From positions 1 to 23,434 of the IMG/VR virus record IMGVR_UViG_3300032291_001199: DNA of 23,434 nucleotides; one strand, 5' to 3'. Of this stretch, positions 4,787-23,207 are shown in pieces. The notes beneath the pieces were generated by a model that was not told where the DNA came from, made no database searches, and saw only the letters and a program-made list of their open reading frames with translations. This DNA comes from a virus. The translations under genes were made by a program, and so were the position numbers. Each line of letters opens with the position of its first letter. The stretch's first letter is position 1.

Positions 4787-6612
4787 TGGACTTAATCGTA
4801 CTGGACTTTGAGACATACTACGACCAAGACTTTAGCCTCTCGAAGGTTACGACCGAAGAGTACGTGCGTAGCGACAAGTTCGAAGTCATCGGGCTTGCGA
4901 TAAAGGTCAACAACAATCCAACCGAGTGGGCGAGTGGCACACATGAACAGATCAAGGAATGGCTACATACTTTTAATTGGTCAGACGCGATGGTTGTATG
5001 CCATAACACTCTGTTTGATGGTTCCATTCTTGCTTGGCGGTTTGATGTTCATCCTCGCGTTTGGGCTGATACTCTATGCATGGGACGCGCTTTGCATGGT
5101 ATCGAGGTGGGTGGTTCACTCAAGGCTATGGCTGAACGCTACAAGGTGGGTATCAAGGGCGAGGAAGTTATAGTCGCTAAGGGTAAGCGCCGCCTAGATT
5201 TTAGCGATGCCGAATTGAGCCGCTATGGGGATTACTGCATCAATGACGTGGAGATAACCACGAAGCTCTTTCATCTTATGTCGCAAGGGTTTCCTAAGCA
5301 GGAGTTGCGGTTAATTGATTGCACTTTACGTATGTTTATCGAGCCGACGCTGGGCCTAAACAAGAAGTTGCTTGCTGAACATTTAGAAGATATACGTAAA
5401 CGCAAGGATGAGTTGCTGGATAAGTGCAATGTAAAGCGTGAAGAGCTGATGTCGAACCCGAAGTTTGCCGAGGCACTCCTTGCCCTTGGCGTTGAGCCTC
5501 CGATGAAGGTAAGTCTGACCACGAACAAGCCCGCCCTTGCTCTAGCTAAGAGCGACGAGGGGTTCAAGGCTTTAGCAGAACACCCAAATCCTGATGTGCA
5601 AGCATTGGTTGCCGCACGACTAGGGACAAAATCTACGCTCGAAGAAACCCGCACACAACGATTCTTGGGTATTGCATCACGAGGGATGTTACCTGTACCT
5701 ATCCGGTACTACGCCGCACACACTGGGCGTTGGGGGGGTGATGATAAGATTAACTTACAGAACCTGCCGAGTCGTGGGGCGAATGCCAACAAGCTAAAAC
5801 AAGCTATCGTAGCCCCCGAAGGCTATACCATTATTGATGCTGACTCTGCACAGATCGAAGCCCGCGTACTTGCATGGCTTGCGGGGCAGGGGGACTTGAT
5901 ACAGGGTTTTGCGAATGGCGAAGATGTGTACAAGAAGATGGCATCCGTTATCTATAACGTCGCCGAATCCGACGTAACCAAGGATCAGCGGTTCGTGGGC
6001 AAGACCACAATCTTGGGCGCAGGGTATGGCATGGGTGCGTTGAAGTTTCAGGCACAGCTCAAGACGTTTGGCTATGACATGGACTTGGAAGAAGCGCGGC
6101 GAGTTATCAACATTTATCGCCAGACCAATGACCGTATTGTTGAGCTATGGCAAGACGCTCATTCCTGCTTAGTCACCATGATTAACGGTGAAAGTAAATA
6201 CTTAGGAGTTCCGCCTAACGTATTGAGTGTTGTGGAAAAAACCCCTGCGATACGTCTACCCTCTGGGTTACTAATGCGGTATGATGGGTTGAATTTCGAA
6301 CCCGGAGAGCGTGGTATCGAGTTTAGTTACGCCACCCGCAGAGGGCGCACACGTATTTATGGCGGCAAGGTTATCGAGAACGTGTGTCAGGCAATTGCAC
6401 GATGCATCATAGGTGAGCAGATGTTGCTTATCGCCAAGAAGTACAAGGTGGTGCTGACCGTGCATGATGCGATTGCTTGCGTGGTGCGTGACGAAGAGGT
6501 AGAAGAAGCGGTCAAGCATGTTGAAGAGTGCATGCGATGGACGCCGGAATGGGCAAAGGGGCTACCGCTTAATTGCGAGTCAGGGCATGGGAAATCATAC
6601 GGGGATTGTTAA
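4783..6612 (+). CDS. Family A DNA polymerase with 3'-5' exonuclease
   Basis: Six hundred and nine residues, a replicative phage polymerase without the 5' nuclease domain. Exonuclease motifs are D8/E10 (LDFET), D79 (NTLFDG) and Y151-x3-D155. Polymerase motifs are TGRW at 314-317, NLQNLPSRG at 324-332, motif A around D354 (DSAQIEAR), motif B R403-x3-K407-x3-L411-x3-Y415-G, and motif C HD at 561-562. All catalytic acids are present. The motif B residue matching E. coli Pol I Phe762 is Leu411. The protein synthesises and proofreads phage DNA, presumably with the primase-helicase at 11034. ATGs at 4783 and 4786 are both possible; AAGGAA (4775-4780) fits the second better. It overlaps the next gene as TAATG. 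Confidence 0.97.
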   Translation: MMDLIVLDFETYYDQDFSLSKVTTEEYVRSDKFEVIGLAIKVNNNPTEWASGTHEQIKEWLHTFNWSDAMVVCHNTLFDGSILAWRFDVHPRVWADTLCMGRALHGIEVGGSLKAMAERYKVGIKGEEVIVAKGKRRLDFSDAELSRYGDYCINDVEITTKLFHLMSQGFPKQELRLIDCTLRMFIEPTLGLNKKLLAEHLEDIRKRKDELLDKCNVKREELMSNPKFAEALLALGVEPPMKVSLTTNKPALALAKSDEGFKALAEHPNPDVQALVAARLGTKSTLEETRTQRFLGIASRGMLPVPIRYYAAHTGRWGGDDKINLQNLPSRGANANKLKQAIVAPEGYTIIDADSAQIEARVLAWLAGQGDLIQGFANGEDVYKKMASVIYNVAESDVTKDQRFVGKTTILGAGYGMGALKFQAQLKTFGYDMDLEEARRVINIYRQTNDRIVELWQDAHSCLVTMINGESKYLGVPPNVLSVVEKTPAIRLPSGLLMRYDGLNFEPGERGIEFSYATRRGRTRIYGGKVIENVCQAIARCIIGEQMLLIAKKYKVVLTVHDAIACVVRDEEVEEAVKHVEECMRWTPEWAKGLPLNCESGHGKSYGDC

Positions 6613-7280
6613 TGGTTAAGGCTTGGTCGTACAGCGGCATGAAGAAGTTTGAGACATGCCCAAAGCAGTATTACCATATCAAGGTGTTGAAGGAGTACGA
6701 CGAGCCGCCCACTGATGCAACCACCTATGGCAAAGAGTTCCATGAAGCCGCAGAGTTCTACATCAAGGATGGTACACCACTGCCCCCACAGTTTGCGTTC
6801 GCCAAGGACGTACTCGATAAGCTAAACGCAATTGAAGGCGATAAGTTATGCGAGTACGAACTGGGGTTGACCGAAAACTTAGAACCATGTAAATTTGATT
6901 CCCCTAATGCGTGGTGGCGAGGGGTTGCAGATTTAGTAATTGTGAATCATGATACGGGTGTAGCTCGCATAGTTGATTACAAGACCGGAAAGAACGCAAA
7001 GTATGCAGACAAGGGGCAGTTGGAGTTGATGTCTCTTGCGGCGTTTAAGCACTTTCCGTTAGTCGAGCGTGTCAAGGCAGGATTGCTGTTTGTTATAAGC
7101 AAAGATTTCGTGACTGCTGAGTACTCGCTTAAAGATGAATCAGAGTTGTGGCAAAAGTGGCTCACCTCTTTTAACCGTTTGAAAGCCTCGCATGATAGTG
7201 ACGTGTGGAACGCAAGACCGTCCGGCTTATGTAAAAAACATTGCGTAGTAACAAGCTGCCCGCACAATGGGAGAAATTAA
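6612..7280 (+). CDS. RecB/Cas4-like PD-(D/E)XK nuclease with probable Fe-S cluster
   Basis: Two hundred and twenty-two residues starting in the TAATG overlap with the polymerase. It opens with the WSYSGMKKFETCPKQYY motif of RecB/AddB/Cas4-type nucleases. The active site reads H44, D107 (GVADLVIV) and D122-Y123-K124 (VDYKTGK); the Asp-Tyr-Lys form is normal for this group. One Cys at 16 plus a C-terminal trio at C207, C211 and C216 reproduce the 1+3 Cys arrangement that holds a 4Fe-4S cluster in Cas4 and AddB. Phage members act as 5' or 3' exonucleases in recombination and DNA end processing. The family call is strong; polarity of digestion and cluster content are inferred. Confidence 0.9.
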   Translation: MVKAWSYSGMKKFETCPKQYYHIKVLKEYDEPPTDATTYGKEFHEAAEFYIKDGTPLPPQFAFAKDVLDKLNAIEGDKLCEYELGLTENLEPCKFDSPNAWWRGVADLVIVNHDTGVARIVDYKTGKNAKYADKGQLELMSLAAFKHFPLVERVKAGLLFVISKDFVTAEYSLKDESELWQKWLTSFNRLKASHDSDVWNARPSGLCKKHCVVTSCPHNGRN

Positions 7281-7577
7281 ATGCCTTACGTAAACAAACC
7301 TAGACCGTACGCAAAAGAGTACGACCAGTATCAAGGCACACCAGAGCAAATAAAAAAACGCGCTGAGCGTAATAAAGCTCGTGCAAAATTAGCGAAAGCT
7401 GGTAAAGTACACAAAGGTGATGGTAATGATGTTGCGCACGTTAAAGCTATCGACAAAGGTGGTTCGATTAAAGATGGTCTGCGTGTTGAAGATGCGAATG
7501 CCAACCGCTCATTTAAGCGTGATTCAAAGAGTAACCTAGTATCAGAAGTAAGCAAGCGCGAACGTAAAAAGAAATAA
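7281..7577 (+). CDS. Small basic HNH-like phage protein
   Basis: Ninety-eight residues, very rich in Lys and Arg, starting directly after the nuclease stop with GGGAG (7269-7273) upstream. The middle (about 46-80: GDGNDVAHVKAIDKGG, then LRVEDANANRSFKR) matches the layout of a small HNH-like protein common in phages, normally with VDH or DHI before the GG turn and an Asn before LRV. Here H53 is kept, the preceding acid is Ala52 and the Asn position is Gly66. It may therefore be a weak or inactive member that mainly binds DNA. It lies between nuclease and helicase genes, in keeping with DNA processing. Confidence 0.65.
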   Translation: MPYVNKPRPYAKEYDQYQGTPEQIKKRAERNKARAKLAKAGKVHKGDGNDVAHVKAIDKGGSIKDGLRVEDANANRSFKRDSKSNLVSEVSKRERKKK

Positions 7578-7770
7578 GTATTTACACGCATGGGCATATA
7601 GTGTCTATGCGTGTGGGTACTACGGTTTAGCTCCGTAGGGCGTTGCAAAAAAGGTACCTTGGCAGGCACCTGCACTCTTCGCCAATTCGATTTCGACCCT
7701 GCTTTATGGGAACCCATATATAACAAGACCGTGCACACCGTGTTCGGTCAATTTGCCGTCGGAGAACAAG
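7578..7770 (+). other. Hairpin-rich intergenic region before the SNF2 gene
   Basis: A 193-base gap with no convincing coding frame, the longest non-coding stretch in the window. It holds a long stem at 7584-7614 (ACACGCAT pairing with ATGCGTGT, extendable through G-U pairs to about 14 bp with a 3-base loop). It also holds CTACGG/CCGTAG (7620-7625 with 7633-7638), TTGGC/GCCAA (7659-7663 with 7681-7685) and TATGGG/CCCATA (7705-7710 with 7713-7718). None is followed by a T-run, so these are not standard terminators. A processed mRNA leader, a small RNA or a protein-binding site are all possible. A weak TATATA at 7717-7722 has no good -35 partner. Confidence 0.6.
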
Positions 7771-7773
7771 TTG
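7761..7773 (+). promoter_or_regulatory. Ribosome binding site setting a TTG start
   Basis: GGAG at 7761-7764 lies six bases before TTG 7771-7773. The same GGAGAAC spacing stands before the ATG at 9357. No ATG or GTG is in frame near the conserved start of the helicase, so this TTG is the best initiation codon. An upstream TTG at 7753 has no purine-rich site. Confidence 0.7.
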
Positions 7774-9309
7774 GAAATTATTGATAACAAGTCTTTGCTT
7801 TTGAATTTACGTAACCCACAGAAGATCACAACAGTGATCCCAAAGAGCAAAGATCTTGGTAATGGTAAGGTGCTTGTACGATGGGGACTTGACGAAGCAC
7901 AAGTACTCAAAAACCTAAAGATACGTAACGTACCTAGTCCTATCCTTGGGCATTACAAGTGGACAGGGCAGTACAAACCATTTGATCACCAACGTACCAC
8001 CGCAGCATTTTTAACATTAAACAAACGTGCGTTCTGCTTTAACGAGCAAGGCACAGGCAAGACCGGAAGCGTCATTTGGGCGGCAGACTACTTGATGACA
8101 CAACGCCGAATTAAACGTGTGTTGGTGGTCTGCCCCATGTCAATCATGGATATTGCGTGGCGTGCGGATTTGTTTAAGTTTGCAATGCACCGCACAGTGG
8201 ACATTGCGTATGGCACATCAGACAAGCGCAGACAGATCATCAAGGGCGATGCCGAGTTTGTGATCATTAACTATGACGGTGTTGAGATTGTGCGTGACGA
8301 GATTGCCAACGCTAACTTTGATTTGATCGTAGTCGATGAAGCCAACGCATACAAGAACAGCCAAGCCAAACGGTGGAAAGTACTCAACGGACTGCTCAAA
8401 CCCGAGACATGGTTGTGGATGTTGACCGGTACACCCGCCGCGCAGTCGCCCGTGGATGCCTATGGACTTGCAAAACTTGTGAACCCAACAAGTGTTCCGC
8501 GCTACGCCGGTTCGTTTAAAGACATGGTGATGACCAAGGTTTCAAACTTTCGGTGGGTTCCCAAGTCGCAAGCAACGCAGATTGTGTTCGAGGCATTGCA
8601 ACCCGCTATCCGGTACACCAAGGACGAGTGTCTGGACTTGCCGGAAATGACTTACGTCAAGCGAGCCGTGGAGTTGACCAAGCAACAGCAGAAGTACTAC
8701 ACCCTGCTTAAGAACCGTATGATCGTTGAAGCATCAGGTGAGTCCATCACATCGGTTAATGCCGCCGTGAACATGAACAAGCTCTTGCAAATATCCTGCG
8801 GCGCGGTCTATTCCGATACTGGCGAGACCCTTGAGTTCGACATCAAGAACCGGTACAAGGCGCTCAAGGAAGTTATCGACGAGACCAACCAGAAGGTGTT
8901 GGTGTTTGTACCATTCAAGCACATCATCAGCATCCTGACCGGCAAGCTCCAAGCAGACGGTATTACCACTGAGATCATATCCGGTGACGTACCCGCCAAT
9001 AAGCGCACCGACATCTTTAGCCGATTCCAGACCACGGATAACCCACGGGTGCTTGTGATTCAGCCACAGTCTGCTGCGCATGGTGTAACCCTTACCGCCG
9101 CCGATACGGTTGTTTGGTGGGGTCCTGTACCGTCACTTGAGACCTATGCGCAGGCAAACGCACGGGTGCATCGTTCGGGGCAACGCCACCCAACCACCGT
9201 TGTACAGCTCCAAGGCTCAGGCGTAGAGCGTCACGTTTACCAACTTCTTGACAATAAAATAGACGTACACACAAAAATTATAGATTTATATAACAATCTA
9301 CTTGATTAA
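7771..9309 (+). CDS. SNF2-type DNA helicase / translocase
   Basis: Five hundred and twelve residues from a TTG start. Helicase motifs in order: Walker A EQGTGKT at 92-98 (K97), motif Ia VLVVCP, motif II VVDEAN with D189/E190 (DEAN instead of the usual DEAH), motif III TGTP at 219-222, motif IV region KVLVFVPF, motif V PQSAAHGVTLT, and motif VI QANARVHRSGQ at 461-471 with R465 and R468. This is the compact SNF2 core without chromatin-binding additions. Phage versions are thought to remodel forks or displace proteins and may replace UvsW/RecG-like activities; that role is inferred. It follows a structured leader, and a sigma-70 promoter overlaps its last codons. Confidence 0.93.
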   Translation: MEIIDNKSLLLNLRNPQKITTVIPKSKDLGNGKVLVRWGLDEAQVLKNLKIRNVPSPILGHYKWTGQYKPFDHQRTTAAFLTLNKRAFCFNEQGTGKTGSVIWAADYLMTQRRIKRVLVVCPMSIMDIAWRADLFKFAMHRTVDIAYGTSDKRRQIIKGDAEFVIINYDGVEIVRDEIANANFDLIVVDEANAYKNSQAKRWKVLNGLLKPETWLWMLTGTPAAQSPVDAYGLAKLVNPTSVPRYAGSFKDMVMTKVSNFRWVPKSQATQIVFEALQPAIRYTKDECLDLPEMTYVKRAVELTKQQQKYYTLLKNRMIVEASGESITSVNAAVNMNKLLQISCGAVYSDTGETLEFDIKNRYKALKEVIDETNQKVLVFVPFKHIISILTGKLQADGITTEIISGDVPANKRTDIFSRFQTTDNPRVLVIQPQSAAHGVTLTAADTVVWWGPVPSLETYAQANARVHRSGQRHPTTVVQLQGSGVERHVYQLLDNKIDVHTKIIDLYNNLLD

Positions 9310-9330
9310 GTTAAATAATGACACTATAAT
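9302..9330 (+). promoter_or_regulatory. Sigma-70 type promoter
   Basis: TTGATT (9302-9307) and a perfect TATAAT (9325-9330) are separated by exactly 17 bases. The -10 box and most of the spacer fall in the short gap before the gene at 9357, while the -35 box uses the last codons of the SNF2 gene. Transcription would begin near 9337 and give a leader of about 20 bases ending in AGGAGAACATC. Host RNA polymerase would therefore start the coiled-coil, HTH, SSB-like and primase genes independently of upstream read-through. Confidence 0.75.
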
Positions 9331-9356
9331 AAACATTCCAACACTAGGAGAACATC

Positions 9357-9752
9357 ATGACCGACCAAGTACCCGTAGAAAAGCTAGTAAAGGTTTACAT
9401 TAAGATGCGCGAGAAGCACACAGCTATGCTCCACGAGTTCCAAGAGAAAGAGAACGAGATCAAAGAGCAGATGCTGCAAGTCAAGGACGCGCTCCTGACC
9501 CACTGCAAAGAGCATAACGTCGAAAGTGTGCGTACTTCCGAGGGTTTATTCTTTCGCACGATCAAGCAGAGCTATTGGACAAACGATTGGGATTCAATGG
9601 GTAAGTTTATCCTCGATCACCAAGCCCCTGAGCTACTTGAAAAGCGCCTACACCAAGGCAACATGAAACAATTTTTGGAGGAACACCCTGATCTTTTACC
9701 CCCCGGGCTTAACGTAGACAGCCAATACTCAGTAACCGTAAGGAGAAAATAA
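9357..9752 (+). CDS. Coiled-coil phage protein of the replication block
   Basis: One hundred and thirty-one residues with AGGAG (9346-9350) before the ATG. Residues 5-52 form a charged helix or coiled coil (YIKMREKHTAMLHEFQEKE and onward), followed by a small alpha/beta part with VESVRTSEGLFFRTI, DWDSMGKFI, LLEKRL, and a closing PPGLNVDSQYSVTVRRK. The same order occurs in small proteins beside phage SSB and polymerase genes, but I know of no assigned function. It is the first gene after the sigma-70 promoter, so it is probably made in quantity. A role as a replication accessory is an inference from position only. Confidence 0.8.
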   Translation: MTDQVPVEKLVKVYIKMREKHTAMLHEFQEKENEIKEQMLQVKDALLTHCKEHNVESVRTSEGLFFRTIKQSYWTNDWDSMGKFILDHQAPELLEKRLHQGNMKQFLEEHPDLLPPGLNVDSQYSVTVRRK

Positions 9753-14146: not shown

Positions 14147-14176
14147 ACCCCCACCTAAGCCGTGGGGGTCTTTTTT
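14147..14176 (+). terminator. Rho-independent terminator of the plus-strand block
   Basis: ACCCCCAC (14147-14154) and GTGGGGGT (14162-14169) form a perfect 8-bp GC-rich stem with a 7-base loop, followed by C and six T (14171-14176). On the minus strand the stem is not followed by a T-run, so it stops plus-strand transcripts only. The T-run overlaps the TAA stop of the convergent 2004-aa gene. Confidence 0.9.
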
Positions 14177-17100
14177 AATCCCCGTTGAACTCGCGCATAC
14201 TTTGCAGGATCTCGGGCATCAACCGCTTGTTATAAGCAACCCCACCGTACATCGAGGCAGTCGTCTGCATGTGCTTGCGCATTGAGCTGCGGATTGAATT
14301 TGCTGTAATGGCAATCGTTGGGTGTTTGGCGTTAAACTCACCAATCTTCTGCATTACCTCCGACATACCCTCGGCAACGCCCGTGCTAGCTGCTAGATAA
14401 TACTTCTTTAGCAACTTAGACGACTGCTGTACCACAGCACGTTCAAACCCTTTGAGCGCAGCGTTTTGCTCGTTCTGCATCATGTACTCAGCGGGGGCAA
14501 AACCCAACATCTGTGCACCAGCGTTCCATGCACTGACTTCACCCACAATCGGATCACCACGCAATGTGTTAGCGCCTTCGGTTGCAAACCGGATACCCTT
14601 GAGTACGTTACCGGCAGCTGCGGGAGCCATCTGTTCAAAGGCCCTGCCCGATTCACCTTCATTCAATAGCTTGATACCACGCTGTACACGATTAGCTACG
14701 CCAAGGACCGGACCGCCAAGCATTTCAATCCATGAGTCAATTACTGTACGGTCAGGATTGGTGTTGCCGTCACGGAAAATCAGGTCGCTTAAGCCCACAC
14801 GCGACGAGATTGCAAGGCCGGTAAGAGCGTTTAGCCCACCACTGTATGCTTCTTCACCCAAGAACTTACGGACTTCGGTGCGGAAATCATCTTCGTCATC
14901 GTCTTTCAAGGAATCGTATAGCAACGCAGCGACACCAAACATTGGCAACCCACGCACACCTGACAGCAAAGCAGACGAACCAAAGATACCTGCAATCTGA
15001 CGCATCGCCAAGGAACGCTCTTCCGCAGTACCACCTTTCATTGCTTCACGAGCGGTCTTAAACATCATGTAGTACATTGACGCGCCATAGCGCTTGTACA
15101 TAAACATAACGCTACCAAGTCCACCTTGAGCTAAGCGCGGTGCGGATGCTGCAGAAGTTCCGCCGTTAAGGGATTCGGTTGTCTCGATTGCTCGTGTTGC
15201 TGCAATCATTTCACGCTCGGCTTCAGGCAACTTACCTTCTTTGGGGTCACTCTTCATGCGTTGCAACTCAAGGTCGTACGCCGCAATCATAGCTACCTGA
15301 CGGTTCATACGTTCGCCATGGTGGAACGCTGCACCCGATACCGAGTTTACCTTTTCAGACAACGTATCTTTACCACGGATGTCGAGCATGTCTTGAGTGA
15401 TTGAGCGTGAGGTCTGCCCACGTTCTTTAGCAAGCTTAGCAAGGGTTTCGTAGTGCTTGAGTTCAGCTGACGCTTTACTGAAGTCGTAGTTGTCAATGGA
15501 CGGTGCAGACTTGATGCGGCTCTTGTTGCCGTTTAGGTCAGTTACCTCACGAGTAAATCCGCTACCCATAAACACACGAGTAGCATTCCCAATAGCTTTT
15601 GTAGTATCGGAATAGCCATACTTAGCACCAAGGTAGGGGGCAACAACCAACGGCAGCTGCATCATGTTGACCAGTGCGGCAGAGATGTTAAACCCAAGCG
15701 TCATGTTAAACCCAAGTGTGCGCGTAACTTGTGCCCACTTAGGAGTGTTGGGGTTCATGGCAAACTGAATACGCTGGTTAAATTCTTCTGCGTACTCACG
15801 CCCAAGGTCACTAGGATTTTCTTTAACGTATTCTTGAATATCGTTATTGAGCTTACCCAACTTCGCACCATACTTCATGTTCATGAGCTGGTTGATGATC
15901 ACAGGCGCTCTGGACTGCATCGCGGCAATTGCGTCTTGTTGAAAGCCTAGGCGACCCTTGATATCTGCACGTTGTCTAAACGATTGTGCAAACGAAGACT
16001 CCGGCATGACGTTCAAGAACAGCTGCATGATCTCGTCAACAGCAGTATCGGATACTTTGTTTAGCTCCAACGTCTGCAACACTTGGTTCATAAACGAACC
16101 AGATGGGGCGTTGCGGTACGTCCTGCGGGTTGGCTTTGCAAATTCTTCGATACCTTTAACGCCGCTCTTTTCCAGTTCACGCACGTAATCGCGGCGCTCA
16201 ATTGGGGTCTCGAACGCCTCAACGTATGTTTCGGTTGTGTTGGTCTTAGGGTTAAACGCACGGTAAGAAATCCAGAAGTCACCAGAACGTGTCAGCGGGA
16301 AGTAAGGTGCAATCACACCAGCGTTTTCCATGATCCTGCGCAAGGCTTCGTTAACTGCCTTAGCCTTTGACTTGTCACCACTAAACTCTTCGTTTACACG
16401 GCTCTTTAGAATCTCACCGATTTTGTCGTATAGCTTCTTGTATGCATCTCGCATCTCAGTGTATGTACGTTTAGCACTGGCATCTAGTGCGTCCCACTTA
16501 GCCTTTAGCGCATCGTACTGCTTGAGCTTTTCGGGATCCTTCTCGTACTTTGTACGGAGTTCGGTTGGGTCAACCTGCTCTGTCGTGCTGGTATAGATCA
16601 CGTCGTTAAACGCTTTCATCTTTGCTTCGGTCTGAGTCTTAGCCCAATCGGTTACACGACGCAACGTAGCATCAGAGCCGTCGATAAGTGTATCTGTCTC
16701 ACCCTTGCGCAGGTCAATGAGTTCACCAAGGCGCTTAGCTAGAGGGATGATGTTCTTTGCCGAATCAATCAAAGCGTCAAGAGGTAACGCACCACGCAAT
16801 GCGTTCTTTACCCAACCGGGCAAATCGCTTCCAAGGACCTTGTGCGTCTGGCTAACAAACTTCTGACCACGCTCAGGTAAGGATTCGTTAATTTTGCTTG
16901 CCGCATCAATTACGCGGTCACCCATCCTAGTGGCTGATGCCATGTACAGTGCTTCACCGATACGGGAGTCAGGGGCAGGCGACAGAATTGATTCAATCAA
17001 AGCGTCCACTTCGGATAACGTACTGCCTACGGGTTTTGCTTCCACACCAAACTTACGACGCAAGAAGTTCATAATGACATTTGTAAACTTCTGTAACGCT

Positions 17101-20100
17101 GTAATGTTTGAGCCGTCCATGTTGATGGAAGCAAGCTGGTTGCGAAACTCTTGGTTACCCCAAGTCTCAGCTACGAATTCCTGCAGGTTCTGTGCACCAT
17201 ACGCTGTATCAAGTTTACCCTTGACCAAATCGAATATACGTTTCAGTTGTTTAGTAACCGGATGGTTTGCATTAGCTAAGATATGCGATACCGCCCCGTG
17301 CGTAGCCTCGTGCATCAAGGCGTGTGGAGTCATACCAGTTTCGGCATCAAGTAGTATGGTGTTGGTTTCGGGGTCAAACATACCCGGAACGCGCTTGCCA
17401 CTATCATCCTTTAAATTCTGTACGACCTTAACTTTTGTGCCGGTCAAGGCTTTAGCGAGCAGCTGCGTAATGCGCCGTATGCCGCCGCTCTGTTGTTGTG
17501 CAAGGGCACCAAGCGCTTCGGTCAAATTCCTCGCTTGTAAATGGCTTGCTACTGTGTCGGACACAGGTTCGGTTGCACTTACTTCAAGTTTAAGTTTTTT
17601 GCCTTTTGCCGTGGCTGGGTTGTTCGCCCAATTTAAACCTTCTCTTGCCGCCCTAGAAACTTCGCTTTCGGCTTTAACAGCTTCTGCCTTAGTTTCAGTT
17701 TTTGGTGCGGCATCGATTGCAGCTTGTGCCTGTGCTACAAGAGACGCAAACGGATCCACTGGTGCTTTCGGTGCAGCGGGTTTATCTTCAGCCTTTGGTG
17801 CAGCAGGTTTCTTTGCCTCTGGTTTCTTTACTGGAGCTGGTGCAGCTGCCTTTCCAGCAGGACTAGGTTTAGCTCCTCGACCAGTATCAGCCAGTCGTCC
17901 TCCAGCAGGTTTTGAAACTCCTGCGGTACTAGGCGTAGCACTGGTTCCTGTTGGGACGCTTGGTTTACCCACTCCCACAGACGGCTGACTTGTTCCGGGC
18001 TGAGCGGTCGGCTCAGCGGCAGTTCGCTGATTAACATTTTGCGCTCCTTGCGGTAACACCGACTTGAACTTAGCAACGCCTCCTCGTGGACCGAACAGCT
18101 CACCTTGTTCTTTTACGAACGGTGATTGCGACAATATATCGTTAATGCGTTTTACGACAGTACGCGAGCGAGGATCAGTACGCGCAGCAAAAGCATCACG
18201 AGCAGCAACAAGTTGGTCTTTTACATACGCACGTTGTGTAGGGTCAAAGATGTCCTTACCAATAATATTGTTACGTACGGCAGAGGCAGCGGGAAGATAC
18301 AAATAATCGACTTGTTCTTGCTGGATAAGTCCTTGCTCTGGGCGCTCCGCGACTTGTTCCTCAACCGCAGGGGCAGCTGCCTTCATCCCTTTAGGTGCGG
18401 CAAAACCGGGCAACCCAATCTGTTGTGGTTCTTGCCGACGTGCCTCTCGGTACACATCCATCTCGTTAGGCACAGTATCCTGCGCCGTAGCCTCTGGAGT
18501 AGCACGGACATCGTAAGCGCGTTGAATTAACTCACGCTCTCTTGGGGTGAACTGGGTATCTGTAAACCCAGCTGACTGCAAAGCGTTACCAAAAGCTTTG
18601 GGGATATTTTTTACTGCGGTATTTTCAATCAGGGGTAACAACAACCCTAGACGGTCGTTCTCTGTTGTGCGTTCTTGCGTACTTTTAATACGGGCGTCGG
18701 TTTCGGCAAGATCAGATTCAAACTTTAAACGTTCCTGTTGCGCGGCGCGAGCGCCAGCTTCACCTTGTGCTACACGCTCTGCTTGTTTAGCTTGTGCATT
18801 AGCAACTGCTTGCGCGTTTTGATCCGCGACGTACATCTCTACAATCTGTTGGTTTTCAGTGCGTCCACCTACAAGCGGTAACGTACCTTGTCCTGCAGGA
18901 GCAGCCGTACTTGGTTCTGCGGCAGGAGTAACACCCGGTAACTGCATATCTTCTGGCGCAATTGGTGCGGGTTGTTCTGGTGCAGCACCGAATAGATCCT
19001 GACCGCCTAGGTCTAGTTCACCCTGTCGTGCTGTGGTTGGGGCAGCGGGGGCTTCAGGAGTTGTTACTTCCGGCGCAGGGGGGCCTTGCATACCGGCAGC
19101 AGTTTCTTGTGCTTGCTGTAATTCTTCGGGGAACATTTCCCCTTGTGCTGTGTATTGTGGGGTAATACCAGCAGCTTCTTGCTCCGCTGCTTGCTTAGCA
19201 GCACGGGCGTCTAGTTCGCGTTGTGCACGACCTTTAGCCCCGATACCACTTACACCACCGAATGTACCGCCAAGTACTGCGCCCCCAATGAGACTTTCCA
19301 GATACTCTTCGCGTGCCGATTCGTCCGTGGTACTAATGTCTGCTTGCAAACGCTCAAGGAACTGCTGCCCAACTTCAGTAAGACCTTCAACACCAGCAAC
19401 CTTACCACCCTTAAGCCCCACGTTAGTGAGCAGGTTGCGTTGCGCGATAGTTTTAAGCTGATCTTCGGTAAGCTCTTTACCAGCGGATCTAAAAATCTTG
19501 TTGATGCCGGGCAGCATCCGTAATGACACTACGTCCAATAACGCTTGTGGAACCGCAGCGGCACCTGCTGCTAATACGTCTGTATCGGCAAGGCTTACAC
19601 CTTTTTCCTGAACCTGTCGGGATAAGTTAGAACCTGTGAATTGCGCAAGCGAGGCAAGACCCGCAGCAGTACCAGCAGCAACCCCTGCACCCACACCAAG
19701 CGCACCAGCAACGGGAGCCGCACCAGCAACTGCACCCGCAGCAATAGGAGCTGCCATGTACGCAAGCGATCCACCTAGGGTCTCTTTAAACTTTTGCCAT
19801 GGGGATTCTAACCAACCGTCTTGTGTACCTTGGAAAGTTTCGGCAGCAGTTTTCTCTCTTTCAGCGGCAATCTCTTCTGCTCTGCTGACGTCCATAATCC
19901 CCGTGCGTCCAGCAACACGGGCAAGGTCTGCAATGAGTTGTTCTTTACCGGCTTTTGCTGCAGCTTTGAACCCGCCTTCTGGCGTAGGCTTCGCCGCTTG
20001 TAACGCCGCTTCTTCAGCTTGTCTTCTAAGATCAGCTATCTCTGCTTCACGTTGAGTCTTCTTAGCCGTCTGATCTTCTTGTTGCATGTACCGCTGAGCC

Positions 20101-20189
20101 GTTGCAAACAGATCTTTTTCAGATGCGCCTTCTGGACCTTCGATTTCGTACGTACGCTTATCAGGGCCTTCGATTGTGTAAATCGGCAT
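14175..20189 (-). CDS. Giant virion-type protein with metallopeptidase motif and LPD38/PLxRFG-like end
   Basis: A 2004-residue protein with AAAGGTG before the ATG. It opens with a short MPIYTIEGPDKRTYEIEGPEG domain seen at the head of many large phage proteins. A Gly/Ala-rich hydrophobic stretch (about 139-182) and a second (about 295-320) could insert in membranes. Long Gln/Ala and Pro/Lys/Ala linkers cover roughly 320-850. HEATH at 960-964 is a zinc peptidase motif, with EFVAE (E1008 a possible third ligand). Helical segments follow, then, about 1680-1930, the QGGLGSVMFMYKRYG and LRGLPMFGVAALLYDS region resembling the C-terminal domain of large polyvalent (PLxRFG/LPD38) proteins. Likely an internal virion protein ejected into the host, helping DNA passage and cutting wall or protein targets. 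The motif is visible; the role is inferred. Confidence 0.8.
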   Translation of the reverse strand: MPIYTIEGPDKRTYEIEGPEGASEKDLFATAQRYMQQEDQTAKKTQREAEIADLRRQAEEAALQAAKPTPEGGFKAAAKAGKEQLIADLARVAGRTGIMDVSRAEEIAAEREKTAAETFQGTQDGWLESPWQKFKETLGGSLAYMAAPIAAGAVAGAAPVAGALGVGAGVAAGTAAGLASLAQFTGSNLSRQVQEKGVSLADTDVLAAGAAAVPQALLDVVSLRMLPGINKIFRSAGKELTEDQLKTIAQRNLLTNVGLKGGKVAGVEGLTEVGQQFLERLQADISTTDESAREEYLESLIGGAVLGGTFGGVSGIGAKGRAQRELDARAAKQAAEQEAAGITPQYTAQGEMFPEELQQAQETAAGMQGPPAPEVTTPEAPAAPTTARQGELDLGGQDLFGAAPEQPAPIAPEDMQLPGVTPAAEPSTAAPAGQGTLPLVGGRTENQQIVEMYVADQNAQAVANAQAKQAERVAQGEAGARAAQQERLKFESDLAETDARIKSTQERTTENDRLGLLLPLIENTAVKNIPKAFGNALQSAGFTDTQFTPRERELIQRAYDVRATPEATAQDTVPNEMDVYREARRQEPQQIGLPGFAAPKGMKAAAPAVEEQVAERPEQGLIQQEQVDYLYLPAASAVRNNIIGKDIFDPTQRAYVKDQLVAARDAFAARTDPRSRTVVKRINDILSQSPFVKEQGELFGPRGGVAKFKSVLPQGAQNVNQRTAAEPTAQPGTSQPSVGVGKPSVPTGTSATPSTAGVSKPAGGRLADTGRGAKPSPAGKAAAPAPVKKPEAKKPAAPKAEDKPAAPKAPVDPFASLVAQAQAAIDAAPKTETKAEAVKAESEVSRAAREGLNWANNPATAKGKKLKLEVSATEPVSDTVASHLQARNLTEALGALAQQQSGGIRRITQLLAKALTGTKVKVVQNLKDDSGKRVPGMFDPETNTILLDAETGMTPHALMHEATHGAVSHILANANHPVTKQLKRIFDLVKGKLDTAYGAQNLQEFVAETWGNQEFRNQLASINMDGSNITALQKFTNVIMNFLRRKFGVEAKPVGSTLSEVDALIESILSPAPDSRIGEALYMASATRMGDRVIDAASKINESLPERGQKFVSQTHKVLGSDLPGWVKNALRGALPLDALIDSAKNIIPLAKRLGELIDLRKGETDTLIDGSDATLRRVTDWAKTQTEAKMKAFNDVIYTSTTEQVDPTELRTKYEKDPEKLKQYDALKAKWDALDASAKRTYTEMRDAYKKLYDKIGEILKSRVNEEFSGDKSKAKAVNEALRRIMENAGVIAPYFPLTRSGDFWISYRAFNPKTNTTETYVEAFETPIERRDYVRELEKSGVKGIEEFAKPTRRTYRNAPSGSFMNQVLQTLELNKVSDTAVDEIMQLFLNVMPESSFAQSFRQRADIKGRLGFQQDAIAAMQSRAPVIINQLMNMKYGAKLGKLNNDIQEYVKENPSDLGREYAEEFNQRIQFAMNPNTPKWAQVTRTLGFNMTLGFNISAALVNMMQLPLVVAPYLGAKYGYSDTTKAIGNATRVFMGSGFTREVTDLNGNKSRIKSAPSIDNYDFSKASAELKHYETLAKLAKERGQTSRSITQDMLDIRGKDTLSEKVNSVSGAAFHHGERMNRQVAMIAAYDLELQRMKSDPKEGKLPEAEREMIAATRAIETTESLNGGTSAASAPRLAQGGLGSVMFMYKRYGASMYYMMFKTAREAMKGGTAEERSLAMRQIAGIFGSSALLSGVRGLPMFGVAALLYDSLKDDDEDDFRTEVRKFLGEEAYSGGLNALTGLAISSRVGLSDLIFRDGNTNPDRTVIDSWIEMLGGPVLGVANRVQRGIKLLNEGESGRAFEQMAPAAAGNVLKGIRFATEGANTLRGDPIVGEVSAWNAGAQMLGFAPAEYMMQNEQNAALKGFERAVVQQSSKLLKKYYLAASTGVAEGMSEVMQKIGEFNAKHPTIAITANSIRSSMRKHMQTTASMYGGVAYNKRLMPEILQSMREFNGD
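17298..17312 (-). other. HEATH zinc-metallopeptidase motif codons
   Basis: These codons give H960-E961-A962-T963-H964 of the 2004-aa protein. The preceding residues TPHALM and the following EFVAE about 40 residues on match the usual setting of gluzincin-like peptidase motifs in large phage and plasmid proteins. H960, H964 and a downstream Glu (1004 or 1008) would hold the zinc. Confidence 0.7.
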
Positions 20190-20198
20190 ACTTCACCT

Positions 20199-23100
20199 TT
20201 AATTTGGACGTACGTTGGTTACTCTAAAACCCCCAGCACTGTTTCCTAACACTCGATCCATCAAGGCGCTTTGCCCTGCCAACGCCCGGGCTTTTTGTTC
20301 TTCGTAAGGATCCAATGCGGCTTTAAGATCAGCAGCTTGCTTGAGTTCCAACGCTCTTAATTGAGCTGCTTTTGCTTCAGGTTTACCAGCGGAAAATTGT
20401 ATTGCTTCGCGTTGTTTTGCAAACGCCCTTTCAAGATCTGCCGCAGTCTTACGCATACCTTCCTGAACCGTAGAAATCTTTGACTCATACCCAGCCATAA
20501 GAGTTTGAGCTTGGATATTATTAGTGTTTGCCATTCTCGCAGCAAAATCGTCTTTATGTACTTGAACGTTTTGCTGATGAATAAGCATTTGTTGATCACG
20601 TGCCAACTGTCGATCCGCCAACGTATTTTGTTGCATTTCTTTACGGGCGTTAATTTCTTCCGCAAGACGACGATCACTTGCACCAGCGGAGATACCAGCA
20701 GCTTGAATCTTACCAACATAGTCAGTGTAAGACTTATAGAACGTGCCGTACATCTCGTTAGCAAGCTTCTTGTTGCCTTGCTTGAGCGCCGTGCGATATT
20801 GATCAAATGCATCCTGTGCGTCTTCTGCCTTGTCAATAGCTTTACGGGCTTCGGCTTTAGATTCAAAATACTTAGTACCACCTTTTTCAGCAGCGCGACG
20901 GATACCATCGGATAGGTTCAAACCACCCATCATTGCAAGACCCGCAGCAATAAACGCTTCGTTCATTACGCCTTTCTCTTGTGTCTCAGCACGGGACAAA
21001 CGCTTCAAGGTGCGGGCTTCCATGTTAGCAAGAACGGCTTTGTCTTCAGGATCAAGCTTAGCCAAGTCTTGAACGTTTGCACGGTATGTAGCAAAGCTCA
21101 TTGGATCGCCGGGTACGCCAACTGGAATACCAACACTGCCAGCTCCACCACCAGCAGGAGCGCCACCAGTACCGCCAACAGTAGGAATACCACCAGCGCT
21201 AGGTGCAGCAGAAGTTATTGGAGTGCCTGTAGTCGTAGTTGTACCCGCCGGTGCAGCGGCTGGAATACCTGATGTTGTGGTTGTTGGAGTACCTGTAGCC
21301 GCTGTTGCTGCGGGCGCAGACGTAATGCCACCATAAGGTTGTACTTGGCTATCAGCGTCTTGCATCTGCAGTGCTTCCGCCGCATCCATTACTGCATAGT
21401 CAGAATCTACTACACTTTGAGGTTGTACTTGGCTATCTGCATCCTCGTTTAACAATTCCCGGTTAACGGCGGCAACAGCTTCCGATGCACCAGCACGATT
21501 TGGTTGTGCTTGCGAATCAACGTTCTGGGCTTGTTGAGTTAGTTGCGTACGGCGTTGGCTTGGTGTAACTCCAGCAGCCTGAAAAGTTCGTAGCTCTTCC
21601 GGTGTAGCCGAACGCAACTCACCCATCATTTCTCTTGCTGTGCTACGTTTTTCGGGTGGGGATGTAAAGTATCCAATTGGACCCGCGACTTGCTTAAAAG
21701 GTAGCATTAATTTATTACGTAAATCTTCAATACGTACATTTTCTTTCCGTGCCGCTAGGTCTTGACTAAATTCGGAAGCATCAGGGTCATTTGCTGTACT
21801 ACCCGTCTGTCCGTTTAAAGCAACAATACCGCCGCCCGCTGCCATCATAGGCTGCTGACCAATACCACTTGGAGCTTCCTGTGCCTGTGCCTCTTGTGCT
21901 TGCGTAGCTTGTTGCGACTGGCGCATTTCGGCACGGCGTTGCATCTCGGCTTGAACTTCTTCTCTTGCAGCGGGGTTTCTGACCGTACGTGCGTACGCCA
22001 TCAACTGATCATCACTTAGACGTGATAATTTGCTGGGAAGAGATGCGGGGCTAACCGAAGACAATGCACGGGGGTCAACCTGCACACCGCCGCCTGCAGC
22101 ATAGGACTTCATGATGCCACCTTCTTTAGCACCGCGACCAGCTGAAGCGCCATATGCTGCAAGACCGGCACCGAGCAACTGAGGCATCATCGCGCCAGTG
22201 TTCTGGTAAATCGTCTGCGAGGCTTGTGACAGCGGTAAGCCCCGGAACATGTCCGATTGGAACGCCAATTGCTTGTATGGATAGTTGAGTTGCTCTTGGT
22301 ACTCTTGGTATGGAATATCCAAACCACGCTGAGCTTGAGCTTGTTGAGCAGCACCTGCTCGCATCTGTGCATCAGCGATAGACATCTGCTGTGCAAACTG
22401 TGCGTTACCAATATTGGTTAGTGTATTGGCACCTTGCAGACCAAGATTGTAAGCATTCTGTGCGCCTTGCACACCCTGCAGCCCCATACCAGCGCCTTGA
22501 ATACCGGTCTGTGCGCCTTGGATTCCAGCTTGTAATCCTTGTAAGCCGACTCCAGTACCGTACTGCATCGACTGAATGGCCTTGTCGTATGCCGATTGTG
22601 ACCCTTGGGCTTGGATGTTAGCCAACGCAACGTTACGGTTACGCTCGTTTTCAGAACGCATCAATGCGTCACGCGACCCACCGAAAGCGCCAGCAGCAGC
22701 ACCACGACCCATAGTTTGCGCACCAGTAATGTCGTATGCACGGTTAGCTTCGTGCTTTTGCAAGTCTACTACGTTCTGCATATAGGGCGACATGTAGGCG
22801 CTTACAGCCCCGGGTGACGTAGCCATGTTAGCGTAGCGGTCACCCACACCTGTTGCATACGCGCCATATCCTGCACCAATACCGCCATAGCCCGCACCCG
22901 ATGCGCCATAACCTAGCGCTGGGGTAGCAGTAGCCATACCACCTTGAGTAGCCGTGTTTGCGTAACCCGTAGCTTGTGCAAGTTGGGGTGCGACTTGCAT
23001 GTCCCCTAAGCTTGTAAACGCTTGGCTTTGCAAGGGGGTGAATTGCGCAACCCGTTGCCCGGAGTATGGCTGGTATGGGTTCTGGTTGATATCCGTTAGC

Positions 23101-23207
23101 GCAGCAGCTTGCCCAAGCGTCCTTTCGACGTACGGACGTGCGTATTCGGGGATGTTTGTCGTTGTGACGTTTTGACTTGTAGGTGCTGAAGATCCGCCGC
23201 CGCTCAT
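20199..23207 (-). CDS. Large repeat-rich virion (ejection-type) protein
   Basis: One thousand and two residues; the ATG overlaps the preceding stop as ATGA, with AGAGG upstream. The N-terminus has the PEYARPYVERTLGQAAAL and PYSGQRVAQFTPLQ pattern I associate with internal or tail-associated proteins of podovirus-like phages. Then come a Gly/Tyr-rich run (99-117), the segment GRGAAAGAFGGSRDALM, four Gly-Gln heptads (221-248), and a Gly-rich hydrophobic patch near 340-375. Next are a Gln/Ala region, three DSQ-x-QP peptides (about 563-625), a Thr/Pro/Gly linker (about 625-700) and a charged coiled coil to near the end. It lies between the small GNAT-tail-like gene and the giant peptidase gene, like gp13-14-15-16 in T7. 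A channel or ejection role is inferred from layout only. Confidence 0.75.
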   Translation of the reverse strand: MSGGGSSAPTSQNVTTTNIPEYARPYVERTLGQAAALTDINQNPYQPYSGQRVAQFTPLQSQAFTSLGDMQVAPQLAQATGYANTATQGGMATATPALGYGASGAGYGGIGAGYGAYATGVGDRYANMATSPGAVSAYMSPYMQNVVDLQKHEANRAYDITGAQTMGRGAAAGAFGGSRDALMRSENERNRNVALANIQAQGSQSAYDKAIQSMQYGTGVGLQGLQAGIQGAQTGIQGAGMGLQGVQGAQNAYNLGLQGANTLTNIGNAQFAQQMSIADAQMRAGAAQQAQAQRGLDIPYQEYQEQLNYPYKQLAFQSDMFRGLPLSQASQTIYQNTGAMMPQLLGAGLAAYGASAGRGAKEGGIMKSYAAGGGVQVDPRALSSVSPASLPSKLSRLSDDQLMAYARTVRNPAAREEVQAEMQRRAEMRQSQQATQAQEAQAQEAPSGIGQQPMMAAGGGIVALNGQTGSTANDPDASEFSQDLAARKENVRIEDLRNKLMLPFKQVAGPIGYFTSPPEKRSTAREMMGELRSATPEELRTFQAAGVTPSQRRTQLTQQAQNVDSQAQPNRAGASEAVAAVNRELLNEDADSQVQPQSVVDSDYAVMDAAEALQMQDADSQVQPYGGITSAPAATAATGTPTTTTSGIPAAAPAGTTTTTGTPITSAAPSAGGIPTVGGTGGAPAGGGAGSVGIPVGVPGDPMSFATYRANVQDLAKLDPEDKAVLANMEARTLKRLSRAETQEKGVMNEAFIAAGLAMMGGLNLSDGIRRAAEKGGTKYFESKAEARKAIDKAEDAQDAFDQYRTALKQGNKKLANEMYGTFYKSYTDYVGKIQAAGISAGASDRRLAEEINARKEMQQNTLADRQLARDQQMLIHQQNVQVHKDDFAARMANTNNIQAQTLMAGYESKISTVQEGMRKTAADLERAFAKQREAIQFSAGKPEAKAAQLRALELKQAADLKAALDPYEEQKARALAGQSALMDRVLGNSAGGFRVTNVRPN
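21338..21518 (-). repeat. Three dispersed DSQ-x-QP peptide repeats
   Basis: The plus-strand string GGTTGTACTTGGCTATC occurs at 21338-21354 and identically at 21421-21437; a diverged copy (13 of 17 bases) lies at 21502-21518. On the coding strand each gives Asp-Ser-Gln-(Val/Ala)-Gln-Pro, usually after an Asp/Ala pair. Starts are 83 and 81 bases apart, so the repeat keeps frame with the 1002-aa protein. It falls in a region likely to be disordered. Confidence 0.75.
22464..22547 (-). repeat. Four in-frame 21-bp units encoding Gly-Gln heptads
   Basis: Residues 221-248 of the 1002-aa protein read GLQGLQA, GIQGAQT, GIQGAGM, GLQGVQG: a seven-residue unit G-(L/I)-Q-G-x-x-x repeated four times. The DNA units are diverged in third positions, so the pattern is kept at protein level. 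Spacing of Gly every three to four residues with an aliphatic face suits a glycine-zipper helix that packs tightly or enters a membrane. Confidence 0.75.

Follow-up and report, generated by a model that had tools for sequence, protein, structure and literature searches.

A conserved structured RNA preceding a phage helicase gene belongs to a candidate RNA family found beside many other phage genes

Why would a phage keep 193 nt non-coding in front of a helicase gene? The window analysed here is a whole virus record of 23,434 bases, in which a non-coding gap of this length separates the stop codon of a 98-aa ORF (7281-7577) from the TTG codon at 7771. A preliminary description of this DNA had proposed that the gap is structured, a view borne out by folding: its minimum free energy is -70.6 kcal/mol, compared with -53.5 +/- 4.4 kcal/mol for shuffled sequences (z = -3.86), and 0 of 200 shuffles folded as well. 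The helicase start is most likely TTG 7771. ORF calling extends the gene to an earlier TTG at 7753, and we favour 7771 on sequence grounds because it is preceded by GGAG (7761-7764) and because many homologues have ATG or GTG at the equivalent site. Since TTG, GTG and ATG all occur there among helicase homologues, the TTG does not stand out as a signal in itself. The features of the region are as follows.

7281 to 7577, plus strand: basic ORF of 98 aa upstream of the gap, phrog_4590 (function not assigned)
7578 to 7620, plus strand: P0 hairpin of 20 pairs, its 3' strand overlapping the P1 5' arm
7597 to 7602, plus strand: weak -10-like TATAGT inside P0, placed as in promoter-bearing relatives
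7611 to 7719, plus strand: RNA1 core, a new structured RNA family as judged from covariance-model matches and covariation
7611 to 7618, plus strand: P1 5' arm, GUGUGGGU
7620 to 7638, plus strand: P2 hairpin, CUACGG-UUUAGCU-CCGUAG, with a conserved UUAGC loop
7639 to 7683, plus strand: P3 arm with CCUUGGCAGG tip, subfamily-specific, with different sequence in its place across the broad family
7697 to 7710, plus strand: P4 hairpin, CCC-UGCUUUAU-GGG
7712 to 7719, plus strand: P1 3' arm, ACCCAUAU
7727 to 7749, plus strand: P5 hairpin, before the ribosome-binding site
7761 to 7764, plus strand: Shine-Dalgarno-like GGAG, 6 nt before TTG 7771
7771 to 9309, plus strand: SNF2-type helicase, TTG start at 7771

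The first inverted repeat had been described as about 14 bp long; the hairpin was confirmed, but it comprises 20 pairs including G-U (7578-7597 with 7601-7620). The at least four perfect inverted repeats reported earlier correspond to helices P0, P2, P3, P4 and P5, which were checked as helices only. P0 and P1 share the strand GUGUGGGU and would therefore exclude each other, the element existing either with P0 whole or with P1 and a shortened P0. Their computed energies are -70.6 and -64.2 kcal/mol, respectively, a difference of 6.4 kcal/mol that places whole P0 at the minimum, and the folding model makes both states plausible in the window. A long-range pairing between the P3 tip and CCUGCUU, suggested by RNAalifold on six sequences, was dropped because a twelve-sequence set gives P3 and P4 instead and P4 covaries. 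Kissing between the P2 and P4 loops was considered by eye only.

A scan of positions 6500-9500 revealed no terminator-like or promoter-like site on the plus strand inside the gap, and we rejected an intrinsic terminator on that strand. The same scan placed a terminator-like site at 7671-7652 on the minus strand, the site counts being not above those of shuffled sequences. ARAGORN detected no tRNA or tmRNA in the window. The TATAGT at 7597 is also present in L087, where no TTGACA precedes it, and is absent from L091, L246 and L251; we give it little weight as a promoter of the window.

We then compared the gap with those of 80 fetched helicase relatives, 79 of which had both ends found. The spacing between the small ORF and the helicase varies from 58 to 816 nt, and its contents differ from group to group. 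The window clade (L001/L083, L006/L086, L007/L089, L073, L084 and L091) shares one module, and the same module precedes the helicase in L085, L087, L092 and L093, where that protein is only 56% identical to its counterpart in the window. In the sister group L002-L005 the gap is only 72-77 nt long, the module is absent and only the last hairpin, P5, is kept. In the six sequences of set A2, 97.5% of cells were paired and 13 of 47 pairs had two-sided changes; P0, helix 1 of this set, had 98.3% of its cells paired and two-sided changes in 4 of its 20 pairs. None of 500 shuffles of A2 reached these values for pairing or covariation, while the number of pair types was not significant (195 of 500). 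The P1 3' arm is retained in the clade that has P0. In L251 and L246 (3002-3901 in reverse-complement coordinates), an ORF of about 234 aa, whole in L246, is inserted between RNA1 and the helicase, and both loci keep P0 and P5 beside RNA1 despite the insertion.

Each model search took in part of the fetched loci. Model R1, which was built from A2 and includes P0 and P5, also scored L002, L004, L009 and L011 at 36-39 bits (E 1e-7 to 2e-8), scores that we ascribe to the shared P5 because models R2 and R3 find no RNA1 there. R3 found no RNA1 among the helicase relatives searched outside the window clade, none of the three models matched L094-L097, and no RNA1 was seen by eye in the helicase-side gaps of four cultured relatives. 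The window RNA1 itself scored 119.5 bits with R2, of which it is one of 12 training rows, and 49.5 bits with R3, of which it is one of 37.

A scan of IMG/VR viral contigs for the P3-arm motif returned 39 stretches, 27 of them not seen before. When R2 was run on 26 of these 27, 25 matched over the full length and L227 in part; L234, outside the R2 input, has the same core as L228. Of the 27, L246 and L251 lie at a window-like site and the rest lie elsewhere. These loci end in a closing helix P1, GUGGGG/CCCCAC, whose counterpart in the window is the pairing of 7611-7618 with 7712-7719. RNAalifold applied de novo to the twelve sequences of set A4 recovered the same four helices. Over 56 sources R2 gave 35 matches, and in set A5 (29 distinct rows) 95.7% of cells were paired with two-sided changes in 19 of 27 pairs. 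L252 and L253, without an R2 match, were discarded as chance pattern matches. R2 also matched L110, which is without the P3 motif, indicating that P3 is variable and that the core consists of P1, P2 and P4. A pattern made from the P2 and P4 loops then matched at least 120 viral stretches; in all, the pattern scans located this core in more than 100 stretches of IMG/VR, beside various genes.

A5 and A9, a set of 93 members aligned to R3, took the model structure as their guide, which inflates their pair counts: in A9, 94.3% of cells were paired compared with 63.0% after shuffling, and covariation was 0.756 compared with 0.167 (0 of 500 shuffles as high). This fitting is why a test with swapped partners matters, and it is a fair test of P1 since that helix lies outside the search pattern: P1 pairs (score of at least 7) in 107 of 109 distinct matches, compared with 15.7% (maximum 23.9%) when partners were swapped. 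Under a tree-based null of our own design, run on 92 rows with 40 simulations (hence a smallest possible E of 0.0125), 13 of the 18 core pairs exceeded every null value and no non-structural pair of columns did so; the other five are invariant or nearly so, or are the innermost P1 pair. Furthermore, a scan with the P4 15-mer alone yielded at least 40 new loci. The 7-nt-loop hairpin and P1 were found automatically in 31 of the 40 listed, 30 of them with a TTAGC loop (GTTAGCG in 23, TTTAGCT in 3, GTTAGCT in 3, ATTAGCC in 1) and one, L392, with an off-register call. Among the remaining nine, the hairpin was seen by eye in L377 (loop GTTAGTG), L386, L399, L409 (cut) and L413, and L376, L380, L383 and L389 look like chance matches. 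Recovery of TTAGC loops by a P4-only scan means that UUAGC is conserved on evidence independent of the P2 pattern. Finally, G-U cells outnumber A-C cells by 106 to 25 in A9, 43 to 2 in A2 and 15 to 4 in A4, indicating that what is conserved is the plus-strand RNA.

Taken at the level of sequence comparison, these results show RNA1 to be a closed multi-helix RNA of the plus strand (P1, P2, a variable P3 and P4) carried by many phages, with loops of the UUAGC and UGCUUUAU types that are strongly conserved. The window has the P1 closing helix, P2 with a UUAGC loop, P4 with a UGCUUUAU-type loop and plus-strand covariation. No reading frame stays open across the core in more than 8 of 24 relatives on either strand, and the core varies from 118 to 158 nt in length; we therefore rejected a coding explanation. 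Covariation and conservation in relatives, which the preliminary description required of its proposal, were observed, and a conserved reading frame through the region, which would have spoken against it, was not. Its reading of a structured, covarying plus-strand RNA stands, but its scope, tied to the helicase, proved too narrow.

The genes next to RNA1 bear this out. Upstream proteins were scanned for 54 of 65 eligible cases and downstream proteins for 61 of 70. Downstream, phrog_13900 occurs in 15, two terminase small-subunit families in 7 and 5 (members may overlap), primosomal families in 4 and ParB-like proteins in 2. The core is thus not specific to this helicase, given its absence from the R3-searched relatives outside the clade, the 72-77 nt gap of the sister group and the other neighbours elsewhere. 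Against a merely incidental link, the commonest upstream neighbour in the broad set is phrog_62, the same helicase family (17 of 54 proteins), with the RNA on the downstream side of the helicase. The window phage has the same order of helicase and phrog_13900, but there the RNA lies upstream of the helicase.

No protein cluster was present in more than 29 of 135 RNA1 loci, and hence no common protein partner emerged. Both phrog_13900 and phrog_27714 occur in the same 4 of 25 carrier records, and the window phage has both; absence of these families from other carriers is weak evidence because the records are fragments. All 24 carrier records searched, which were chosen because they carry RNA1, contain a strong match; a single record contains two, and in one the second match scores no better than chance. 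Tandem second copies were observed in L270, L284, L344 and L347. The next ORF, called mechanically, lies on the opposite strand in 33 of 113 cases. Three of 60 carrier loci include tRNA genes. In L339 and in L291, where the ARAGORN call has an odd anticodon, 8-10 nt separate them from RNA1, and in L290 they lie about 650 and 730 nt away. Pattern scans of bacterial genomes gave no match to the P3-type motif, a blastn search of cultured phages in INPHARED with one window-type and one broad query gave only short weak matches and no carrier, and plasmids gave no match at E 0.1 with the window-type query.

Many RNA1 copies adjoin a second element, RNA2 (e.g., L265:1594-1694, L269:903-1002, L258, L290 and L332). 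RNA2 has a conserved frame, (C)AACACG-CAU-GGGGAUUG ... CAGUCCCC-AGC-CGUGUUGG, in which ACACG-CAU-GGGGAUUG forms a helix with CAGUCCCC-AGC-CGUGU and encloses hypervariable inserts that differ widely in sequence. One motif search, which also caught window-type P0 hairpins, returned 56 distinct cores. RNA1 itself is the RNA2 insert in L265, L269 and L315, and RNA2 units directly follow RNA1 in 11 of 100 cases. Another unit lies within 900 nt in 44 of 169 locus-strands with an RNA1-like match (in three, only a second RNA1); since most of these loci had been retrieved by way of RNA1, this proportion is no population estimate. Along the RNA chain the outer stems are, by eye, GUUGGU and ACCAAC in turn. 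In the window, P0 (ACACGCAU..AUGCGUGU) resembles a reduced RNA2 frame (ACACGCAU..CGUGU) and adjoins RNA1 on its 5' side.

Transcription signals were assessed by position. Relative to the start of P1 in 110 distinct matches, TATAAT-like hexamers peak sharply at -12 (22), -13 (6) and -11 (5), and a -10 box lies between -16 and -9 in 35 of the 110, compared with 2.8 expected from nearby control windows. These position statistics show that, in about one third of broad-family matches, transcription directed by the -10 box would begin at the first base of P1, which makes such a promoter typical of the family and not a defining trait. When 19 of these boxes were checked for a -35 element, TTGACA was perfect in 2 and only 2 of 6 positions matched in 11. 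In the 90 nt that follow RNA1, a further -10 box was found in 25 of 100 cases, compared with 10.5 at random positions and 32.2 in shuffles of the same AT-rich stretches; as a sign of a separate RNA gene it did not exceed the control and was rejected, save for nine related terminase-side copies (L226, L228, L233, L237, L238, L239, L242, L247 and L249) that share TATACT 21-39 nt after RNA1. A gene start bearing a Shine-Dalgarno sequence occurs within 110 nt after RNA1 in 39 of 100 cases, compared with 18.9 (maximum 30) at random same-strand positions. The failed second-promoter control and this twofold excess of close downstream genes lowered our estimate of an action in trans and raised that of a leader acting in cis. 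A discrete 3' end of RNA1 is assumed.

RNA1 has the look of an RNA gene that serves some general role in infection, since it is conserved across phages that share few nearby genes, usually occurs once per record and often has its own start site. From its usual single copy, its diverse carriers and neighbours and the company of RNA2 and tRNAs, we infer, tentatively and at somewhat less than an even chance, that RNA1 represents a novel class of small structured RNAs encoded by phages, about 70-160 nt long, stable and acting mainly in trans. The trans-acting RNA listed among the options of the preliminary description thus becomes our favoured reading. Such an RNA would be transcribed from a promoter of its own or, in the window, would derive from a longer operon transcript; it would act mainly through the conserved loops of P2 and P4, and P3 would be its variable domain. 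In the window lineage it may be cut out of, or act within, the transcript of the small ORF and the helicase, and the element could adopt either whole P0 or P1 with a shortened P0. Counted against an action in trans are the excess of close downstream genes, the window's lack of a convincing promoter before the RNA, the preference of the minimum free energy for P0 and the existence of tandem copies. The main rival, a 5' leader acting in cis, strikes us as a real possibility, somewhat less probable than an action in trans. RNA1 would here cap the 5' end of an mRNA and control the stability or translation of the next gene, in the window the helicase, within whose 5' region it lies; this agrees with RNA1 beginning at +1 where a promoter is seen and with the close downstream gene starts, only 10 and 13 nt away in L301 and L310. 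The downstream genes are unrelated to each other, however (phrog_13900, terminase small subunit, primosomal, ParB), about a third of the mechanically called next ORFs lie on the opposite strand, and RNA2 units come directly after RNA1 in some cases, as do tRNA genes in two loci.

The other explanations fare worse. An antiterminator borne on the RNA, modifying the polymerase that made it in the manner of put or EAR, is unlikely: the 5'-terminal position, the usual single copy and a location upstream of or between same-strand genes in most matches would suit it, but no Rfam model matches and many next ORFs point the other way. A riboswitch or other ligand-sensing leader would exploit the strand exchange between P0 and P1 in the window, two exclusive states separated by 6.4 kcal/mol in a clade that keeps the P1 3' arm with P0. 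We consider it very unlikely, as there is no common downstream gene, conservation is strongest in the terminal loops, and free-standing copies with a -10 box are without P0. Least probable of all, and hardly to be expected, is an element acting as DNA (a packaging site, origin or recombination hot spot extruding hairpins). It would fit the terminase genes adjoining RNA1 in some phages, whereas the excess of G-U over A-C in A9 and A2 is not required of duplex DNA, and a promoter-like box is aligned to P1. Returning to the favoured action in trans, we regard as possible, if short of probable, an extended form of it, in which RNA1 is an RNA gene of a new class, trans-acting and usually present once, borne by many phages that share few neighbouring proteins and exchanged as a unit of a modular chain; the chain would consist of RNA1, RNA2 frames with interchangeable inserts and sometimes tRNAs, its units using complementary outer stems (GUUGGU/ACCAAC). 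If RNA1 acts in trans, a step of phage biology would prove to be performed by RNA and not by protein; if the chain is modular, it would amount to a phage RNA toolkit, possibly overlooked in studies of host takeover and defence evasion.

Phage small RNAs without an assigned function have been known since T4, so that what would be new is the RNA class and not the general kind. The closest in kind are T4 rnaC and rnaD (species 1 and 2), small stable RNAs of 139 and 119 nt annotated beside tRNA genes and, like RNA1, without an assigned function. Their region has no detectable relation to RNA1, as the best R3 score with filters off was 5.1 bits (E 1.9), a chance value. The packaging RNA of phi29 is likewise a small, multi-branched phage RNA, and some RNA1 copies similarly adjoin terminase genes; unlike it, RNA1 has no Rfam match to such a family, and many copies lie away from packaging genes. 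HK022 put and Bacillus EAR are structured antitermination RNAs located at or near the transcript start or inside an operon, a position similar to that of RNA1, while to our knowledge their folds differ from it. A large screen of viral structured RNAs has reportedly been published, and RNA1 may be an unnamed candidate in it.

Rfam 15 had no family at gathering threshold in the window, and a search of 7500-7860 at E up to 10 gave five matches, all far below gathering. Across 20 helicase-relative loci, four of them RNA1 carriers, Rfam 15 called only int-alpA in L048, away from the gap, and across 16 further loci only two tRNAs, in L290. A literature search that included parts of PMC9004378, PMC12197685 and PMC9964418 found nothing on RNA1. 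Candidate structured RNAs derived from metagenomes, such as those of the 104-motif screen PMC2864571, were like RNA1 found by comparative covariation and often have no assigned function; as a difference, RNA1 is matched by no Rfam 15 model, either in the window or in the scanned loci. The novelty of RNA1 rests on Rfam 15 (window and 36 loci) and on this literature search.

Several other elements were noticed in the relatives and in the window. A different leader RNA with GUAAGGYRYGRGUG occupies the helicase leader gaps of L014, L020-L024, L027, L050, L065, L074 and L079, with an apparent covarying pseudoknot seen by eye (GGUGUG/CGCACC, GGUACG/CGUACC, GGUAUG/CAUACC); at least 120 raw matches to its pattern occur, among L106-L224. 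The leader gaps of L009, L010 and L011 contain a core CUGANGA..GAAA..GUC with stem I, which we take to be a hammerhead-ribozyme-like motif; Rfam made no call for it at gathering in L009 and L011. A small hairpin with loop GGAAAGAC and variable G-C-rich stems lies beside other RNA modules in L009, L011, L076, L225 and L227, with a variant in L060. In L033, L054, L066 and other helicase relatives, the ORF preceding the helicase has its stop codon overlapped, by eye, by a sigma-70-like promoter (TTGAC..17..TACATT type), whose -35 and -10 elements flank a palindrome that varies in sequence. A whole extra ORF, presumably a 2OG-Fe(II) oxygenase from its motif, lengthens the helicase gap to 811-816 nt in L016, L029, L030, L041 and L047. 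The minus strand of the window contains two giant ORFs, one at 20199-23207 (1002 aa), for which no Pfam match was found, and one at 14175-20189 (2004 aa), which matches a DarB-like antirestriction profile. The int-alpA RNA of the helicase relative L048 lies at 6394-6466.
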